From contig JAKQEQ010000035.1 of the NCBI GenBank assembly GCA_029556545.1, positions 1 to 47,342 of the forward strand: a DNA stretch of 47,342 bases. The letters run 5' to 3'. The number at the start of each line of letters is the position of its first letter. Within the stretch, counting starts at the first letter, position 1. The notes beneath the pieces were generated by a model. That model did not search any database. It was not told where the DNA came from and worked only from the letters and a program-made list of their open reading frames with translations. Shown here in pieces: positions 32,236-44,180 of this stretch. The position numbers and the translations under genes are program-made. This DNA is from Candidatus Hydrogenedentota bacterium. Lineage in GTDB: Bacteria; Hydrogenedentota; Hydrogenedentia; Hydrogenedentales; JAGMZX01.

Positions 32236-32964
32236 ATGAGCGTGGTGGATGACGAAATCCTGATCCAGGTCGAGGATCTGCGGAAGATCTACGAGATGGG
32301 CGACACGGAGGTGCGCGCCCTGGATGGGGTGTCGTTCGACATTCCCCGGGGCGCCTTTATTGCCGTGATGGGCCCCTCGGGCTCGGGCAAGACGACGTTG
32401 CTGGACATACTGGGCTGCCTGTCTCATCCGACCTCGGGCGAGTACTGGCTTGCGGGGCGGCGCGTGGGCGGGCTGCGCGACGGGCAATTGGCGGAACTGC
32501 GCAACCACGAGATCGGGTTCGTATTCCAGAACTTCAACCTTCTACCGCGCGACACGGCCCTCGGCAACGTGGAACTGCCGCTCCTGTACGATGCCGTGCC
32601 GCGCCGGGAGCGCGTAGCGCGGGCGAAGGCCGCGCTCGAGGCCGTCGGGCTCGGCGATCGGGCGCACCACCGGCCGAATGAACTCTCGGGCGGACAACGC
32701 CAGCGCGTGGCCATCGCACGCGCGCTGGTGAATGATCCTTCGATTCTCTTCGCGGACGAGCCGACGGGCAACCTCGATACGGCCAGCGGCGAAAGCATTC
32801 TGCGCCTGATTACTGAGTTGCACGCCCGCGGCAATACGATTGTGTTGGTGACCCATGAGCGGGAAGTGGCGGAACATGCCGAGCGGATCATGAGCTTTCG
32901 CGACGGCAAACTGGTGAACGACGAATGGCGGAAAAAAGACGGAAAAGTCTGGCGGTCACAGTAA
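32236..32964 (+). CDS. MacB/LolD-type ABC transporter ATPase
   Basis: The 242-residue ATPase has Walker A GPSGSGKTT, the Q-loop FVFQNFNLLPRDTA, the ABC signature LSGGQRQRVAIARAL, Walker B ILFADEPTGNLD and the H-loop LVTHE. The wording of these motifs is that of the MacB/LolD/FtsE group, which works with type VII permeases by mechanotransmission rather than substrate passage. It overlaps the membrane-fusion gene by 40 bases. The three genes at 32236-35386 together form a split MacAB-type exporter in the inner membrane that would join an outer-membrane channel encoded elsewhere. Confidence 0.95.
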   Translation: MSVVDDEILIQVEDLRKIYEMGDTEVRALDGVSFDIPRGAFIAVMGPSGSGKTTLLDILGCLSHPTSGEYWLAGRRVGGLRDGQLAELRNHEIGFVFQNFNLLPRDTALGNVELPLLYDAVPRRERVARAKAALEAVGLGDRAHHRPNELSGGQRQRVAIARALVNDPSILFADEPTGNLDTASGESILRLITELHARGNTIVLVTHEREVAEHAERIMSFRDGKLVNDEWRKKDGKVWRSQ

Positions 32965-34175
32965 TCTTTTGGCTGGTAGTCGCGGGCGCGCTGGCGGGCG
33001 GCCTGATCTACTACTTCACCCGCGAGCCCGTGGTCGAGGTGACCGCCGTGCGCGTCACGCGCGGCGCCATCGAGCAGACCATCTCGGCCATCTCGTCCGG
33101 CGTCGTGACGCCGGGTATGCAATCGCGCGTGTCCGCCGCCGCCTTGGGCGTGGTGGCGGCGGTGCACGTCGAGGAAGGCGATCGAGTCGAGGCGGGTGCC
33201 CTGCTGGTGGAACTCGAACACGCCGAACTGGACGCGCAGGTGGCGCTGGCAGAGGCCAACCTCGAAGTGGGCCGATCGCGCCTCGAACAGGTCCGTATCG
33301 CGGCGAGGATAAACGATGAAATTTCCTCGGCGCAGTTGGCCCAGGCGCGCGCGCAGCTCGAGGCCGCCAAGGCCGACTTCGATCGGATCAAGTCGCTGGC
33401 GGACCGCAAGGCCGTGTCGCAAAGCGACTTCGACAAGATCGCGCTCGCGTACCGCGTGTCGCAAGAGACCGTGGCCGCGGCGGAGGCGGGCCGGAAGGAG
33501 GTGTTGGTGCGCCAGGAGGAAATCCGAGCGGCGGAGACGGGCATCCGCCAGCTAGAGGCCGCGGTACGGGCTGCACAGGTCATGCGCGAAAAGGCGTTCG
33601 TGCGCGCGCCGTTCGCCGGGGTTGTGGCGAAGAAGCTGCTGCACGTGGGCGAGGCCGTCGCGATGGGCCTGCCGGTCGTGATGCTGGTGCAGGAACAGGA
33701 CCGCTACATCACCGCGCCCTTCGATGAGGCGAACTACGGCGCGATGTTCGTCGGGCAGAAAGCGCGCATCACGCTGGACGCCTACCCGGACCGGGAATTC
33801 GAGGGCGAATTGAGCTATATCGCGCCGGTGGTGACCATGGTGCAAGACCTCACCCGGACCCTCGACGTAAAGGTGCGCATCCTTACGGAGCCCGAGAAGT
33901 TCGTTCCCGGCATGTCCGCGGACGTCACGCTGATTGCCGACGAAAAGGACGATGCCGTGTTTGCGCCGAGCGAGTCGCTCATTCGCGACGAGTTCGCTTA
34001 CGTCATCGAGAACGGACGGGCGGTACGGCGCGACGTGACGGTGGGCATCGGCAACTGGGAACGGCGCGAGATTCTCGAGGGGCTGCGGGAGGGCGAGCAT
34101 CTGATTACTTCGGTGAACTTGAAGGCGCTGCGGGACGGCGCGCCGGTAAACATTGTAGACGAGCTCGATTTCTGA
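32925..34175 (+). CDS. MacA/HlyD-type periplasmic adaptor
   Basis: The 416-residue protein has a short cytoplasmic start, one membrane helix (AVTVIFWLVVAGALAGGLIYY), a lipoyl half-motif (VVAAVHVEEGDRVEAGALLVELE), a long alpha-helical hairpin (about residues 100-215), the second lipoyl half (VRAPFAGVVAKKLLHVGEAV) and beta-barrel/membrane-proximal domains. I cite only VEEGDRVEAG and APFAGVV as hallmarks. It should bridge the MacB-type permease and an outer-membrane duct. It begins inside the ATPase gene and ends with TGATG overlapping the permease start by one base, so the operon is tightly coupled. Confidence 0.94.
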   Translation: MAEKRRKSLAVTVIFWLVVAGALAGGLIYYFTREPVVEVTAVRVTRGAIEQTISAISSGVVTPGMQSRVSAAALGVVAAVHVEEGDRVEAGALLVELEHAELDAQVALAEANLEVGRSRLEQVRIAARINDEISSAQLAQARAQLEAAKADFDRIKSLADRKAVSQSDFDKIALAYRVSQETVAAAEAGRKEVLVRQEEIRAAETGIRQLEAAVRAAQVMREKAFVRAPFAGVVAKKLLHVGEAVAMGLPVVMLVQEQDRYITAPFDEANYGAMFVGQKARITLDAYPDREFEGELSYIAPVVTMVQDLTRTLDVKVRILTEPEKFVPGMSADVTLIADEKDDAVFAPSESLIRDEFAYVIENGRAVRRDVTVGIGNWERREILEGLREGEHLITSVNLKALRDGAPVNIVDELDF

Positions 34176-35386
34176 TGGGCGCGTTGGATTCCATCTTTAC
34201 CGCCTTGCGCGCCATTGCCCAGAACAAGGTGCGTGCTATGCTGACCACGCTGGGCGTGATCATCGGCGTCCTGTCCGTGATCATGCTGATCGCGCTGGGC
34301 GAATCGGCGCAGGCTTACGTCGAGGGCGAATTCGCGGTCATGGGCAGCAACGTGCTCATCGTTACGCCGGGCCGCCAGGAAACCGCCGGCATGTTCCCGA
34401 TCACCGCGGGCAGCCATCGCAAGCTCACCTACGATATCGCCAAGGCGATCAAGCGCAAGGGCGAGAGTATCAACGGCGTGGCGGCGAACATGCTGGGTCT
34501 CGCAAACGTGCGCTACCGCAACCGCCAGCGCAACGTGATGTGCATCGGGACCACGCCCGACTTCGAGCAGGTTCGCCAGCTCTACACGCAGATCGGGCGC
34601 TTTGTCAGCGAGCAGGACATCGAGCGGAACAACAAGGTCTGCGTCATCGGCACGACCGTGCAGCGAGAACTCTTCGGCAGCCACCGGGCGCTCCACGAAC
34701 TCGTGTCCATCAACGGCACGAAGCACATGATCGTCGGCATCCTTGAGGAGCGCGGGATGGCCCTCGGTATCGACCTGGGCGACATCGTGATCATTCCGCT
34801 GCCGAGTTCGCTGCAAATGTTCCGGGGCGGTGAAGACGAGCTGTGGGAGATTATCGTGGGCGTGCGCAGCAAAGACGACATCGACCGGGCTATCGAGTCG
34901 GTGCGGAAGATCGTCACGGCGGCCCACGACAACAACGAAGACTTCACCGTCACGGACCAGGACGGCATGCTGGCCACCTTCTCGCGGATATTCGACATGC
35001 TCCGGCTGATGCTGGTCGGGATTGCCTCGATTTCCCTGCTGGTCGGCGGGATTGGCATCATGAACATTATGCTCGTGTCCGTGCGCGAGCGCACGCGCGA
35101 GGTGGGCATCCGAAAGGCCGTCGGCGCGCGCCGCATCGACGTGGCGGCGCAGTTTCTCATCGAAGCCGTGACGTTGAGCGTGCTCGGCGGCCTCGTCGGA
35201 ATCGGACTGGGCTGGCTCGGCGCGTTCACCCTCGGCCAACTCTACCCGAGCCTGCCCATCAGCGTGTCTCCGTGGTCGGCAACACTGGCGTTCTCGTTCA
35301 GCGTGGCGGTGGGCGTGTTTTTCGGCGTCTACCCCGCCATCAAGGCGTCCGCCGTCGACCCCGTGGTTGCGCTCCGTTACGAGTAA
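34175..35386 (+). CDS. MacB-type ABC permease
   Basis: The 403-residue permease has one N-terminal helix (MLTTLGVIIGVLSVIMLIAL), a periplasmic MacB_PCD domain (about residues 50-260) and a C-terminal FtsX core of three helices with RERTREVGIRKAVGARR, the cytoplasmic coupling segment typical of this class. It completes the exporter with the two preceding genes. Substrates of MacAB systems include peptides, siderophores and macrolides; none can be assigned, but two mini-proteins are encoded 68 bases downstream. Confidence 0.95.
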   Translation: MGALDSIFTALRAIAQNKVRAMLTTLGVIIGVLSVIMLIALGESAQAYVEGEFAVMGSNVLIVTPGRQETAGMFPITAGSHRKLTYDIAKAIKRKGESINGVAANMLGLANVRYRNRQRNVMCIGTTPDFEQVRQLYTQIGRFVSEQDIERNNKVCVIGTTVQRELFGSHRALHELVSINGTKHMIVGILEERGMALGIDLGDIVIIPLPSSLQMFRGGEDELWEIIVGVRSKDDIDRAIESVRKIVTAAHDNNEDFTVTDQDGMLATFSRIFDMLRLMLVGIASISLLVGGIGIMNIMLVSVRERTREVGIRKAVGARRIDVAAQFLIEAVTLSVLGGLVGIGLGWLGAFTLGQLYPSLPISVSPWSATLAFSFSVAVGVFFGVYPAIKASAVDPVVALRYE

Positions 35387-35454
35387 GCAGTACACTCGGG
35401 CCGCGCTGGACAAATGCGGGCGAGCGCGAGGACGATCGGAGGAAAGGAAACGCC

Positions 35455-35577
35455 ATGAGGCACATGCGCAAGATCACCGTGCGTGAAGCGCAGATCATCG
35501 ACATCACTTTCCAGAACCTGCCGGGATTGCTGTTGCTGATCGGCTCGATGTGGGGCGTCCTGAAGCACTACGGATGA
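35455..35577 (+). CDS. Mini-protein 1 behind the exporter, 40 residues
   Basis: A strong ribosome binding site GGAGGAAAGG (35438-35447) precedes ATG 35455. The product begins MRHMRKITVREAQIID and continues with a hydrophobic stretch (LPGLLLLIGSMWGVL) ending KHYG. The next mini-protein overlaps it by four bases (ATGA) and shares the pattern M.H.R.IT.R.AQ. It may be a small membrane protein or a secreted peptide with a leader; neither is established. It is too short for standard gene callers. Confidence 0.65.
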   Translation: MRHMRKITVREAQIIDITFQNLPGLLLLIGSMWGVLKHYG

Positions 35578-35720
35578 TGCCGCGTCCCATGCAACATCTG
35601 CGTCATATCACGCTGAGGCGGGCACAGACCGACGATGCCGAGGAGCGTTTTCGGGAGCTCTTCTTGTTCCGGCTTGTCGTCGCCCTTGTCGCCTTCCTCA
35701 AGAGCGACTTCCCCATCTGA
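35574..35720 (+). CDS. Mini-protein 2 behind the exporter, 48 residues
   Basis: The frame from ATG 35574 overlaps the stop of mini-protein 1 (ATGA). Other ATGs at 35577 and 35589 are possible; from 35589 the product begins MQHLRHITLRRAQTDD and aligns without gaps to the start of mini-protein 1. A hydrophobic segment (LFLFRLVVALVAFL) and KSDFPI follow. The shared residues are coded by different synonymous codons (CAC/CAT, ACC/ACG, GCG/GCA, GAC/GAT), which argues for selection on the protein rather than a recent DNA copy. Confidence 0.55.
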   Translation: MMPRPMQHLRHITLRRAQTDDAEERFRELFLFRLVVALVAFLKSDFPI

Positions 35721-35896
35721 CGACCGCGCGCCGCCGCATCGCGCCGCACCGAGACAACGGCGCGGGCCGAGTCGCCTGTGGTGCGCGGCGGGATGTCGGG
35801 ATTTCGTGAGCCCCCGATTGAGAAGGCCGGGCATTGCCGAAAGACCTTGCGTTATGCCGCCTTCCTGGCGGAAGAGGAAACCATGGAGCTTTCCCG

Positions 35897-37582
35897 GTGA
35901 GGTTCGCTACATATATTGCCCTGCTGGCGGTTGCTCAGGGTGCCTGTTCGTCCGGGGCTGCAACGGGGACTGCGAATAGGCCGTACCCCGAGGGAGAACT
36001 GTGGATGAAGGCGGAGAAACGATACCTGAACCTGCCGGTGAAGGATGGCGCGGCGATGCGGCGGGTGCGCGTGCTTGTCGGGGACGCCGTGGTTCGCGAA
36101 TTCGATATCGAATTGGCCGAGGCCGCGCCGGATTTCTGGGTGTTCCTCGATCTTGCGCCGTTTCAGGGGCGGGAAATCACGGTGCGCCTGGACGGCGCGG
36201 AGGGGGAGGCCAAGGCGCTCGACGCCATTACGCAGGGCGACGTGATTCGAGGAGCGGAGGACCTCTACCGCGAGGCGCTGCGACCCCAGTTTCATTTTAC
36301 GTCGCGGCGGGGCTGGAACAATGACCCCAACGGACTCGTCTTCCACAAGGGCGAATACCACCTCTATTACCAGCACAATCCTTACGGGCGGAAATGGGGC
36401 AACATGCATTGGGGCCACGCCGTCAGTCCCGATTTGGTGCATTGGACCGAATTGCCGATTGCGTTGTATCCGGCGCGGCACGGCGATTGGGTGTTTTCCG
36501 GCAGCGCGGTGGTGGACGAAGCGGACACCGCCGGGTTCAAGAGTGGCGACGAAGACGTCATCGTCGCCGCGTACACGAGCACAGGCCGGGGTGAGTGCAT
36601 CGCTTACAGCCGCGACCGGGGCCGCAGCTTCACGGACTACGAGGGCAACCCGGTCGTCACGCACACGGGCCGGGACCCGAAGGTCATTTGGCACGCGCCC
36701 TCGCGGCAGTGGGTCATGGCGGTGTACGACGAGCAGGAAGGCAGGAAGAACGGCATTTCCTTCTATACCTCGAAGGACCTGAAGACGTGGGCGTACCAGA
36801 GCCGCATCGAGGAGTACTTCGAGTGCCCCGAGTTGTTCGAGTTGGCCGTGGACGGCGACTCGGCGAATACCCGTTGGGTCGTGTACGCCGCAAACGGCGC
36901 GTATGCCGTCGGCATGTTCGACGGCCGCGAATTCAAGACCGAGGCCGGTCCCCATCCGTTCAATCACGGCAACTGTTTCTATGCCTCGCAGACTTTCAAC
37001 GGGATTCCGGCGGAAGACGGGCGGCGGATCCAGATTGCGTGGGGCACCGTTGAGATTCCGGGGATGCCGTTCAATCAGATGATGACGTTCCCGTGCGAAT
37101 TGACACTGCGCGCCACAGACGACGGCGTTCGCATGTTCGCGCGGCCCGTACGCGAGATTGAAGCATTGCACGGTGCGCTCCATGCGTGGAGCGACGCACC
37201 GGTCGCGCCGGATCATAACCTGCTCGAGTCCCTCTCAGGCGACCTGTTCCACATTCAGGCGGAATTCGAACCGGGGGAATCATCGGAGATCGCGTTTGTC
37301 GTCCGCGGCGTGCCCGTCCGCTATGACTGCAAGCAGGCCCAACTCGTGTGCGGCGACAAGGCCGCGCCGCTCGCCCCCGAGAACGGGCGCATTCGTCTGG
37401 AACTGCTCGTTGACCGGGTCTCGATCGAGATATTCGGGAACGACGGGCGCGTCTACATGCCGATGGGGTGTATCTTCAATTCCGACGAGCGCGGTCTCGC
37501 CCTACACGCCGTCGGCGGGAAAGCGACGGTCACGCACCTGCGGGTGTACGAACTGCGTTCGGCCTGGACCCGCGGTCAATAG
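35897..37582 (+). CDS. GH32 fructan hydrolase (levanase/invertase-like)
   Basis: The GTG at 35897 (GGAG eight bases upstream) gives 561 residues with an N-terminal export signal (MRFATYIALLAVAQGAC) that may be lipidated. A beta-sandwich resembling DUF4980 (about residues 35-125) precedes the five-bladed GH32 catalytic domain. Catalytic residues are visible: nucleophile D143 in WNNDPNG, R259-D260 in GRDP, and acid/base E309 in ECPELF. A C-terminal beta-sandwich ends the protein with LLVDRVSIEIFGNDG, typical of GH32. It should cleave beta-fructosides such as levan, inulin or sucrose outside the cytoplasm. It is convergent with the sialidase-type gene, 19 bases away. Confidence 0.94.
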   Translation: MRFATYIALLAVAQGACSSGAATGTANRPYPEGELWMKAEKRYLNLPVKDGAAMRRVRVLVGDAVVREFDIELAEAAPDFWVFLDLAPFQGREITVRLDGAEGEAKALDAITQGDVIRGAEDLYREALRPQFHFTSRRGWNNDPNGLVFHKGEYHLYYQHNPYGRKWGNMHWGHAVSPDLVHWTELPIALYPARHGDWVFSGSAVVDEADTAGFKSGDEDVIVAAYTSTGRGECIAYSRDRGRSFTDYEGNPVVTHTGRDPKVIWHAPSRQWVMAVYDEQEGRKNGISFYTSKDLKTWAYQSRIEEYFECPELFELAVDGDSANTRWVVYAANGAYAVGMFDGREFKTEAGPHPFNHGNCFYASQTFNGIPAEDGRRIQIAWGTVEIPGMPFNQMMTFPCELTLRATDDGVRMFARPVREIEALHGALHAWSDAPVAPDHNLLESLSGDLFHIQAEFEPGESSEIAFVVRGVPVRYDCKQAQLVCGDKAAPLAPENGRIRLELLVDRVSIEIFGNDGRVYMPMGCIFNSDERGLALHAVGGKATVTHLRVYELRSAWTRGQ

Positions 37583-41383: not shown

Positions 41384-43396
41384 CTATCGACTCCGTGGGT
41401 CGCCGCGCGTCGGAGCGTTGAGCCCGAGCGATCGCCATACGTTCTCGGGCCTGTTCGGCCAGAACAGGGGGTCGGCCGCAAAGACTTCCGCCAATCGGGC
41501 GAAAGGCGGATCATAGCTTGCGGCCGCGAGAAAACGGCCGCGGGCCTCTTCGTAGCTGCCCGTTTCCAGCAATGTTGTGAGCCGCGCAACGCGCGCCTGT
41601 TCCTCCGCGGCCCCGCCTCGCCGCGCCTTCTCGTAAGCCGCCTGCGCGCCTTCGAGGTCGCCTGTGGCCAGAAACGCCTCGCGGGCAAATAAGGCGGCGC
41701 GCTCGAAGTCGCCCAGCGCGAGCGACGCCAACGCCTGGCCGTCCATGGCAACGATGCGGGCCGTGCGCGAATCCTCATCCCGCGGGTCCGCCGCCACGCG
41801 AATGCCCGCGCAGTGTTCGAGGGCGTCCAGGTATCGAACGTTTCGCTCGATCCCCTCGGCGAAGCGGGCTTCGCCCAGCCGCAGCAGTGCCGATGCCCAT
41901 TGGAAGTAGGTCTCGTGCTGCAACAGCGTGCCCTGGTTTCCTCGCCGCGTGCGGAACCGGTCGTAGAGGCGGAGCGTTTCGCGGTAATGGCGTTGCGCCC
42001 CGGCCAGGTTGGCTTCCATCTTGTAGGTTTCCGCGAGGTTGGCATGAATGCGATACGTCTCAGGGTTCGACGCGAGGGTGTTCTCGTAGATGGCGGTATT
42101 CGACCGCCACGCCTCGTTGCGCGCCACGGTCAATCCCAGAAACAGCAGCGTGAGCCCCGCCGTCACAGGGACGCCCCAGCGCTGCAACGGCGCGGTCCGC
42201 GCCGCGCCGGCGGCCTGTCCCGTGATCATGGCCGCGAGTTCCGCAAGCCCCCACCAAAAACCGGCCATGGGCACATACAGCCAATGCTCCGCGAGCGGCG
42301 CGTTCAGCGGAAAAATGCCTGAAATGGGCGCCCACGTGAGCAGAAACCAGGCGAATCCCGCCGCGACGCGCCCGTTCCGGCAGTAGAAGCCGTACACTGC
42401 GACCGCCGCAACGGCCATGAGCAACAAGTAGCCGACCAAGGCGACCCAAAGTGGCGTGCCGGCCAGGGTCTGTTCCATGTGCAGTCCGGTGGGCAGGAAC
42501 AGCAACCGCAGGTAGAGCGCGAACGACTGGCCCACCTCGATAAACCGCTGCGACAACGGGGCCGCGACGGCATCTCCCGGCTCCGCGAACCGCAGCACCG
42601 TCATGCGAAGGCCGCCATAGAGGGCGAGAACGGCGAGCGCTACGACCAAGGGCGCGAAGCGCCGCGCGTGAGAGGTTCGGATATTCGCGGAATGCTGACT
42701 GCGCAGGAAAGGCGTGGCCAGCAGGATCCCAAGCAGGACCGGGAAGACTGTGGCGGATTCCTTGCAGAGCAGGGCCGCCGCGAAACACAGCGCCGAAGCG
42801 ACAACGCCGCGCATCCAGCGGGCGGCGTCCGCTTGAAAGACGCAGGCGAGCCCCGCGAACATGAAGGCGGCGGCCATCATGTCGGCGCGCCCGCTGATGT
42901 AGCCGACCGCTTCCGTGTGCAGCGGATGCACGACAAAGATCAGGGAAGTCGCGGTGCGCACGCCCGGCGACGCGCCGAGGCGGCCCAGCAGCACGAACAG
43001 GAGCAAGGCCGCGGCCAGGTGCCATGCCAAGTTGGTGAGGTGAAAGACCAGCGGGCTGACCGCGGGGTAGGGGCGATCCGTGGTCGGGGCGTCCGTGGCG
43101 GCGTCATACGAGATCAAGAAGTCGATCATGAACGAGACGGATACGAAGGGCCGATAGAAATTGCCCTGACCCGTGCCGAAGGCGTGTTGGTCTTCGCGAA
43201 ACAGTTGGAGCAGTTTGGCTGGGTCTTGGACGTGCTTATGCAGCAACACCGACGAGGCGTCGTCCCAGACGAACTCGCCGTCGAACGTGTTGACGTAGCC
43301 CAGGACGCCAAGCAGCAGAATCAACGCCATGGAAACGCCCGGACTGAACAGCGACGGGCGGCGATGAGTCGGGGGCGTTACGTTCACGATGGTCAC
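41384..43396 (-). CDS. TMTC-like GT-C membrane protein with C-terminal TPRs
   Basis: I start at GTG 43396, giving 670 residues; a GTG at 43426 lies inside an inverted repeat and is less likely. The N-terminal two thirds are polytopic with GT-C signatures: the luminal loop GEFVWDDASSVL, NFYRPFVSVSF, FHLTNLAWHL, and FVVHPLHTEAVGYISGRADM. These are hallmarks of TMTC-type and related bacterial proteins with DUF1736. After the last helix come TPR-like repeats (IHANLAETYKMEANLAGAQRHY and later units). Relatives are thought to transfer mannose or other sugars to proteins from a polyprenyl donor at the periplasmic face. The function here is inferred. Confidence 0.85.
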   Translation of the reverse strand: MTIVNVTPPTHRRPSLFSPGVSMALILLLGVLGYVNTFDGEFVWDDASSVLLHKHVQDPAKLLQLFREDQHAFGTGQGNFYRPFVSVSFMIDFLISYDAATDAPTTDRPYPAVSPLVFHLTNLAWHLAAALLLFVLLGRLGASPGVRTATSLIFVVHPLHTEAVGYISGRADMMAAAFMFAGLACVFQADAARWMRGVVASALCFAAALLCKESATVFPVLLGILLATPFLRSQHSANIRTSHARRFAPLVVALAVLALYGGLRMTVLRFAEPGDAVAAPLSQRFIEVGQSFALYLRLLFLPTGLHMEQTLAGTPLWVALVGYLLLMAVAAVAVYGFYCRNGRVAAGFAWFLLTWAPISGIFPLNAPLAEHWLYVPMAGFWWGLAELAAMITGQAAGAARTAPLQRWGVPVTAGLTLLFLGLTVARNEAWRSNTAIYENTLASNPETYRIHANLAETYKMEANLAGAQRHYRETLRLYDRFRTRRGNQGTLLQHETYFQWASALLRLGEARFAEGIERNVRYLDALEHCAGIRVAADPRDEDSRTARIVAMDGQALASLALGDFERAALFAREAFLATGDLEGAQAAYEKARRGGAAEEQARVARLTTLLETGSYEEARGRFLAAASYDPPFARLAEVFAADPLFWPNRPENVWRSLGLNAPTRGDPRSR

Positions 43397-43412
43397 GCTG
43401 CTATCCCGATAG

Positions 43413-43468
43413 TCGGGGACTGGCACAAGCGAGTCCGCCGCAGGCGAACGAGACGTGCCTGTCCCCGA
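43413..43468. repeat. Inverted repeat with 14-base arms
   Basis: Arms TCGGGGACTGGCAC (43413-43426) and GTGCCTGTCCCCGA (43455-43468) pair with one mismatch around a 28-base loop. The element resembles dispersed CTGTCCCCGA-type repeats and lies between the lipoprotein stop and the TMTC-like start. Confidence 0.65.
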
Positions 43469-43487
43469 TCCTCCGCGGCGGCGCAGT

Positions 43488-44180
43488 CTATTGGAACTGC
43501 TGCCGTTTCGCCGGTTCCTTGAGCATCTCGGACGGCCCCGGCGTGATCCAGCTACTGTCGTTGACGGGCAGGTAGTTGAGGCGCACGGCCTGGTTACCGC
43601 CCAGAATTTCCTCGACGCGCACGCCCTCGACCAGTTCCTCGCCGACGCGCGCGGTGCGATTGGAGATTTCCTGCGTGATGGCGTCCGTCACCTGAAACAT
43701 TATATAAGTTTGATCGTCGACCGTGGAGAAGCCCAACACCTTGACGAACGGGCGCGCCATCATGATGTCCGCGCGCTCGATCATGCGCTTGTAGCGCGTG
43801 CTGCCGGGTTCGAGCGCCTCGAAAGCGAGGCAGGCGGCTTTCAAGACGCGCCAGCGTTGGTTCTTGTCCGAGTCGCGAATGAGGTCTTCGAGGTCACGGC
43901 GCATCCGACTATTCGCCTCGGGCAGGTGTTGATATGACATGTTCTTGGCTTTTGCCGCGCGCAGGGCGTTTGCCGGGGGCTCGATTTCGGCCACCTGGAG
44001 CGCGCCGCCGCCGGTCATGGGCCGCCACAACACCTGCACGCTGGTTTTCATCTCATTGTAGATGTCGTCCGCCGTGGGCTCGGGCGGCGGTTCCTCCACA
44101 GGCTCGGGCGGCGGCGGCTCTTCCTGGCAGCCCAAGAACAGCACCACGGCCAACACCAACGCGATAGACACTTGACGCAT
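43488..44180 (-). CDS. Hypothetical lipoprotein
   Basis: The 230-residue protein starts MRQVSIALVLAVVLFLGCQ with a clear lipobox (LFLGC, Cys18), then has a Pro/Glu-rich linker (EEPPPPEPVEEPPPEP) and a folded domain with helical first half and beta-rich second half (VKVLGFSTVDDQTYIMFQVTD). No family is recognised. It should sit in the envelope. A good promoter lies 53-81 bases upstream of the ATG, and GAGGGG precedes the start. It is followed by the inverted repeat and the TMTC-like gene on the same strand. Confidence 0.85.
   Translation of the reverse strand: MRQVSIALVLAVVLFLGCQEEPPPPEPVEEPPPEPTADDIYNEMKTSVQVLWRPMTGGGALQVAEIEPPANALRAAKAKNMSYQHLPEANSRMRRDLEDLIRDSDKNQRWRVLKAACLAFEALEPGSTRYKRMIERADIMMARPFVKVLGFSTVDDQTYIMFQVTDAITQEISNRTARVGEELVEGVRVEEILGGNQAVRLNYLPVNDSSWITPGPSEMLKEPAKRQQFQ

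Follow-up and report, generated by a model that had tools for sequence, protein, structure and literature searches.

The mini-ORF pair and its neighbourhood

The window, i.e., the whole 47,342-nucleotide stretch analysed here from a Candidatus Hydrogenedentota bacterium, carries on its forward strand a MacAB-type exporter consisting of an ABC ATPase (32236..32964; Pfam ABC_tran, 1e-33), a MacA/HlyD-type periplasmic adaptor (32925..34175; Pfam HlyD_D23, 3e-19) and a MacB-type permease (34175..35386; Pfam MacB_PCD, 4e-37, and FtsX, 3e-22). Two mini-ORFs, A and B, follow on the same strand within 35455-35720, and both are proposed here to be orphan precursor peptides. Mini-ORF A (35455..35577) encodes 40 residues, namely MRHMRKITVREAQ and a hydrophobic remainder ending in GVLKHYG; a strong GGAGGAAAGG site lies ahead of it (ribosome binding site GGAGGAAAGGAA, 35438..35449, read directly from the sequence), in agreement with the strong ribosome binding site reported by the initial annotation. 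Mini-ORF B (35589..35720) encodes 43 residues when read from a conserved internal ATG. Residues 1-12 of A (MRHMRKITVREA, 35455..35490) fit the phylum-wide leader profile described below, and residues 1-12 of B (MQHLRHITLRRA, 35589..35624) are assigned as a leader motif on the basis of their profile scores. The remainder of each protein contains one hydrophobic segment, and neither translation contains a cysteine. In searches of Pfam, NCBIfam and PHROGs, neither A nor B matched any family significantly, and NCBIfam gave no match to either at E≤1. Downstream of the pair, the window encodes a glycoside hydrolase family 32 type protein (35834-37582; Pfam 5e-67).

With B read from its internal Met, A and B align without a gap at 8 identical residues among the first 13, followed by 2 among the next 27, and shuffling of residues 2-13 reaches the identity of the start in a fraction of 1.5e-5 of trials. 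As DNA, the shared start is identical at 23 of 39 positions, and five of the eight identical residues are encoded by different codons, which bears out the earlier claim that it is the protein rather than the DNA that is kept. A genome of the same genus (L002) carries orthologs of A (90% identical) and B (58% identical) at the same place behind the end of MacB, and the dN/dS values against it are 0.16 (A) and 0.21 (B). The comparison of Ka/Ks on homologues suggested by the initial annotation thus supports its two frames: judged by these ratios, A and B are real proteins under purifying selection. More distant relatives of A were also found (L003, L004).

The start of B, in contrast, required revision. 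It had been annotated as a 48-codon frame beginning at ATG 35574, which overlaps the end of A as ATGA; however, L002 has no start codon at the overlap site, and B starts there at the ATG that corresponds to position 35589 of the window. The 48-codon start is therefore probably unused, and B is probably a 43-residue protein starting at the internal ATG 35589. The gap from the stop of A to this start is 11 nt in both genomes, suggesting that B is translated via termination-reinitiation rather than via the ATGA overlap.

Mini-ORF A begins 68 nt behind MacB, and this arrangement is kept in the sister genome, as might be expected if A and B regulated the MacAB-type exporter as small membrane proteins, the alternative offered by the initial annotation, or formed part of it. 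However, MacB homologs occur across the phylum without mini-ORFs, and when MacAB-type loci elsewhere were inspected for the same mini-genes, the leader motif was found downstream of macB at 0 of 27 other MacB loci in the phylum. In addition, a YhhN-like gene (named by eye) adjoins the relatives of A from two further families, and the rest of the mini-ORF family has still other neighbours. MacAB of the window is thus a local neighbour of A and B rather than a conserved partner, a position behind a MacAB exporter does not hold as a rule, and a regulatory or structural role in this exporter is very improbable.

A leader-bearing mini-protein family in Hydrogenedentota

The family to which A and B belong was found using a profile of the relatives of A and then a profile of 18-residue N-termini. 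At E≤0.05, the leader motif was detected in 55 of the 68 Hydrogenedentota genomes sampled, so that the suggested search of related genomes did yield homologues, vs. 1 of 19 control genomes from other phyla (Fisher 1.7e-9). The sole control match (best E 0.007) is antisense to mutS and was put down to chance rather than counted as a family member. No leader-profile match at a score ≥15 occurred in 535 kb of shuffled sequence. In the window, the motif profile scored 25.8 for A and 23.7 for B, while the best of the remaining peptides among the 1414 from the window reached 11.5; the profile used for this scoring was trained without the window and without the B of the sister genome, and the sister of A was not in the training set.

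The 127 distinct members with a score ≥20 share the start consensus M[KR]H[ILV][RK]x[IV][ST]xxxA, with Ala at position 12 in 81% of them, and an RBS-like site precedes 118 of the 127. Across the phylum, this one motif is joined to many different C-termini. One core type reads ADAF..FLNAVWRAWxDFRYxKKNE (27 aligned), and the other types include hydrophobic segments such as FFQLYFTVLAFMISAALG, LDRVFGFV...KGK, and further ones besides. A strongly hydrophobic 18-residue segment is present in 39% of cores vs. 10% of shuffled cores, and the commonest array core looks amphipathic rather than membrane-spanning. Of the earlier proposal that a leader-like start with a variable remainder lies next to an ABC exporter, the first part is strongly supported in a broader form, the start being a phylum-wide motif on many C-termini, whereas the link to MacAB is not supported as a rule.

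Some family members form tandem arrays, and others are orphans. Besides the window pair, the genome of the window has one array, on contig C81, and two single orphans, one each on C182 and C100. A common neighbour of the orphan mini-ORFs was sought and none was found, the neighbours being specific to subfamilies. The mini-peptide family is large and apparently undescribed; a literature search, outside which most subscription journals lay, returned no described system of this kind.

The array-linked operon and its CteB-like protein

Many of the arrays are followed by an operon with the order GNAT1, GNAT2, CPBP/Rce1-like protease, ABC ATPase, ABC-2-type permease and a CteB-like protein of ~600-650 aa. 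At 27 of the 29 loci with enough upstream DNA, all five genes upstream of the last one, hereafter the maturase, are present in order and with near-constant spacing. Among the 26 operons whose upstream DNA extends for about 5.8 kb or further, 20 have mini-ORFs immediately before GNAT1. In these, a precursor gene stands beside one that encodes a protein with a leader-binding domain, as expected of a RiPP locus, an arrangement that the window pair does not share; in the other 6 of 26 loci, no mini-ORF is recognisable just upstream of the operon. The operon or part of it, with no recognisable mini-ORF upstream, was seen in L139, L148, L170, L171, L173 and L185, and in some genomes the arrays are located away from the operon. 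The operon of the window's own genome is on C81, with the maturase at 42136-43995. The exporter consistently linked to the family is the two-gene ABC transporter of the array operon, which is distinct from MacAB.

The CPBP protein has an Rce1-like domain (Pfam 5e-12) and the EExxxR motif in 29 of 29 sequences, as in Rce1-like glutamic membrane proteases. The two GNAT proteins are less conventional: although their Pfam GNAT match is still significant, the acetyl-CoA P-loop [QR]xxGx[GA] occurs in 0 of 29 GNAT2 and 3 of 28 GNAT1 sequences, so they do not conform to the acetyl-CoA-dependent type and acyl transfer is uncertain. These proteins may be inactive, or may use another donor. No radical SAM gene was found just downstream of the operon in the two loci checked.

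The maturase-like protein (~640 aa) is present in 62 of the 68 Hydrogenedentota genomes, and among named genomes its full-length relatives are Hydrogenedentota records, a few entries named "uncultured bacterium" and one labelled Nitrospiraceae. The leader motif was detected in 53 of the 62 genomes with the maturase vs. 2 of the 6 without (p 0.010), a co-occurrence that is confounded by phylogeny since five of the six maturase-less genomes are one family. A profile of the maturase matched CteB (5WGG) with E 8.6e-46 over profile positions 4-420, colinear over the RRE, core and SPASM regions, and then matched GNAT structures. The predicted structure (mean pLDDT 83, pTM 0.70) likewise superimposes on CteB (Z 26.9, 384 residues, rmsd 3.2), and its last 165 residues resemble GNATs (Z about 16); the second list of structure matches consists mostly of GNATs, and the absence of other families from it was not used. 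As in CteB, an N-terminal RRE, a barrel core and a SPASM region are thus found in one chain.

The CxxxCxxC motif of the radical SAM cluster, which CteB possesses, is found in 0 of 38 full-length maturase sequences. A SPASM-like Cys motif, CxxCWAxxxCGGG, is kept in 36 of the 38, and one further Cys is invariant in an alignment of 34 maturase sequences. The NCBIfam models that match the SPASM half are those of the SCIFF maturase, QhpD and PapB, all far under their cutoffs; the bit scores for TIGR03974 are 47.6 and 76.1 vs. an equivalog cutoff of 425. Taking the alignments together with the structural model, we assign the protein as a CteB homolog that lacks the radical SAM cluster motif and is fused to a GNAT fold.

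The composition of the operon also bears on a reading in which the mini-proteins are leaderless membrane-active peptides, comparable to leaderless bacteriocins or phenol-soluble modulins, that are exported whole by the ABC transporter and whose start is part of the active peptide. The short, hydrophobic or amphipathic products of tandem genes, with an ABC exporter and a CPBP protein adjoining, would suit such peptides. However, they would need neither a sharply bounded invariant start on unrelated remainders nor an operon protein built on a leader-binding SCIFF maturase, and we give this reading a slim chance.

Relation to SCIFF and other peptide pathways

When the leader profile was run against 498 kb of other-phylum flanks of SPASM-region relatives, it returned three matches only, all of which lie beside peptide maturases. 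Two of the three (L187, L188) are SCIFF precursors located just upstream of the maturase match (TIGR03973, E 9e-17 and 4e-17), with the starts MKHIKVLSRNR... and MKHIKILSRNR.... The third is a 44-aa ORF (MKHIKKLNVKAG...) overlapping the end of a PapB-like radical SAM/SPASM gene in a Bdellovibrionales MAG (L211 9101-10538), possibly the precursor of another pathway. Against PDB chains, the leader profile gave no relevant match; it met syntrophin by chance only, and the CteA fragment was not recovered. The CteA leader binds the RRE of CteB as a β strand (PMC6231123, PMC8326336). Given these structural studies and the recovery of SCIFF precursors by the profile, the Hydrogenedentota leader resembles one known to be bound by a homologous domain, and by analogy may be bound in the same manner.

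We note both likenesses and differences between the Hydrogenedentota system and SCIFF (CteA/CteB, TIGR03973/TIGR03974). In both, the peptide starts with a leader of the form MKHIK-x-hydrophobic-S, and the RRE-core-SPASM protein is homologous over its length. First among the differences, a SCIFF precursor contains six cysteines in about 45 residues, whereas A and B have none. Second, the Hydrogenedentota maturases lack CxxxCxxC (38 of 38) and carry an extra GNAT domain. Third, the operon adds two GNAT genes, a CPBP protease and an ABC exporter, and the family comprises many different cores and orphan precursors. With neither the cysteines nor the radical SAM motif present, the A/B family would represent RiPP-like precursors of a SCIFF-derived pathway rather than members of the SCIFF family itself.

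Comparisons with other systems are more limited. Prochlorosins have nif11-type precursors and one promiscuous enzyme (PMC10783134), resembling the many diverse cores on one leader with, presumably, one enzyme in Hydrogenedentota; however, the leader is a different one, and no lanthionine synthetase was seen in the Hydrogenedentota operon. Selidamides and nostolysamides are GNAT-lipidated RiPPs, so that GNATs acylating RiPPs are known (PMC13060382), and they too combine GNAT-family proteins with leader-bearing ribosomal peptides, whereas they have NHLP or nif11 leaders and often a lanthionine synthetase, and the Hydrogenedentota GNATs lack the canonical P-loop. QhpD and PapB share SPASM-region homology with the maturase but are active radical SAM/SPASM enzymes with other substrates.

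The mini-proteins might instead be small membrane proteins, functional at full length and neither cleaved nor exported, in which the basic N-terminus is a cytoplasmic recruiting tag, perhaps for the CteB-like scaffold, and the hydrophobic segment an anchor. The excess of strongly hydrophobic cores, dN/dS values down to 0.02 among orphan members and a near-universal presence that suggests housekeeping are all consistent with this, although a membrane protease and an exporter are encoded in the same operon as many of the arrays, the commonest array core does not look membrane-spanning, and the start resembles a proven RiPP leader. On balance, we consider such membrane proteins unlikely.

Proposed pathway

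We consider it fairly probable that A and B are orphan precursors of a SCIFF-derived, RiPP-like pathway that extends across Hydrogenedentota and serves them in trans. Residues 1 to about 12 of A and B would be the leader and the remainder the core. The leader would lie as a β strand on the RRE of the CteB-like protein from the C81 operon, and this protein, its radical SAM motif lost, would present the peptide to GNAT-fold enzymes, i.e., its own domain and the two encoded upstream, which may make a non-radical modification, plausibly the transfer of a group, acyl or otherwise. Next, the CPBP membrane protease would cut off the leader, and the product would be transported by the two-gene ABC exporter. 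From its gene content, the operon is plausibly a platform for predicted leader binding, equipped with GNAT-fold proteins, a protease and an exporter. Least certain of all is that the C81 operon serves A and B in trans; this is inferred from the leader that they have in common with the operon-linked arrays, and the position of the window pair away from the operon counts against it; MacAB would be at most an extra local exporter.

Purifying selection on the cores, which sets them apart from many antagonistic peptides, counts against the proposed pathway. Near-universal presence and low dN/dS together point to a housekeeping role rather than to a rapidly evolving antagonist. In a broader form, which we hold more tentatively and at somewhat under an even chance, there would be a RiPP class spanning the phylum Hydrogenedentota, whose SCIFF-type radical SAM maturase has turned into a non-radical, GNAT-fused platform that retains the ancestral MKHIK-type leader and serves many scattered, mostly Cys-poor peptides, possibly with housekeeping rather than antagonistic functions.

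If true, nearly every sampled Hydrogenedentota genome would hold a RiPP-like system with precursors that fall in no Pfam or NCBIfam family, and a radical SAM maturase could lose its chemistry, keep leader recognition and be repurposed. Many tiny genes likely missed by standard annotation would also gain a function. Given the leader motif, a single RRE domain and synthetic peptides would suffice to test the prediction.

Further arrays and orphans

In the window's own genome, up to five leader-bearing mini-ORFs, some of them low-scoring, lie directly upstream of the operon (G000:C81:36695-37994; L100 4696-5995). The orphans at G000:C182:57497 (L101) and G000:C100:191735 (L102) have dN/dS values of 0.036 and 0.024 vs. 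same-genus orthologs, below those of the window pair. Mini-ORF arrays were also seen in L107, L109 and L119, where the stretches read contain none of the operon genes; the gene after the array in L109 and L119 (852-881 aa) was considered as a maturase and rejected, as it encodes an alpha-glucan phosphorylase. Related orphans in L222, L223, L224 and L230, with cores of the IFLQVWLTAF or ILFFQLFFTVV type, have in common neighbours that resemble an alkaline-phosphatase-type and a neutral-ceramidase-like gene (assigned by eye).
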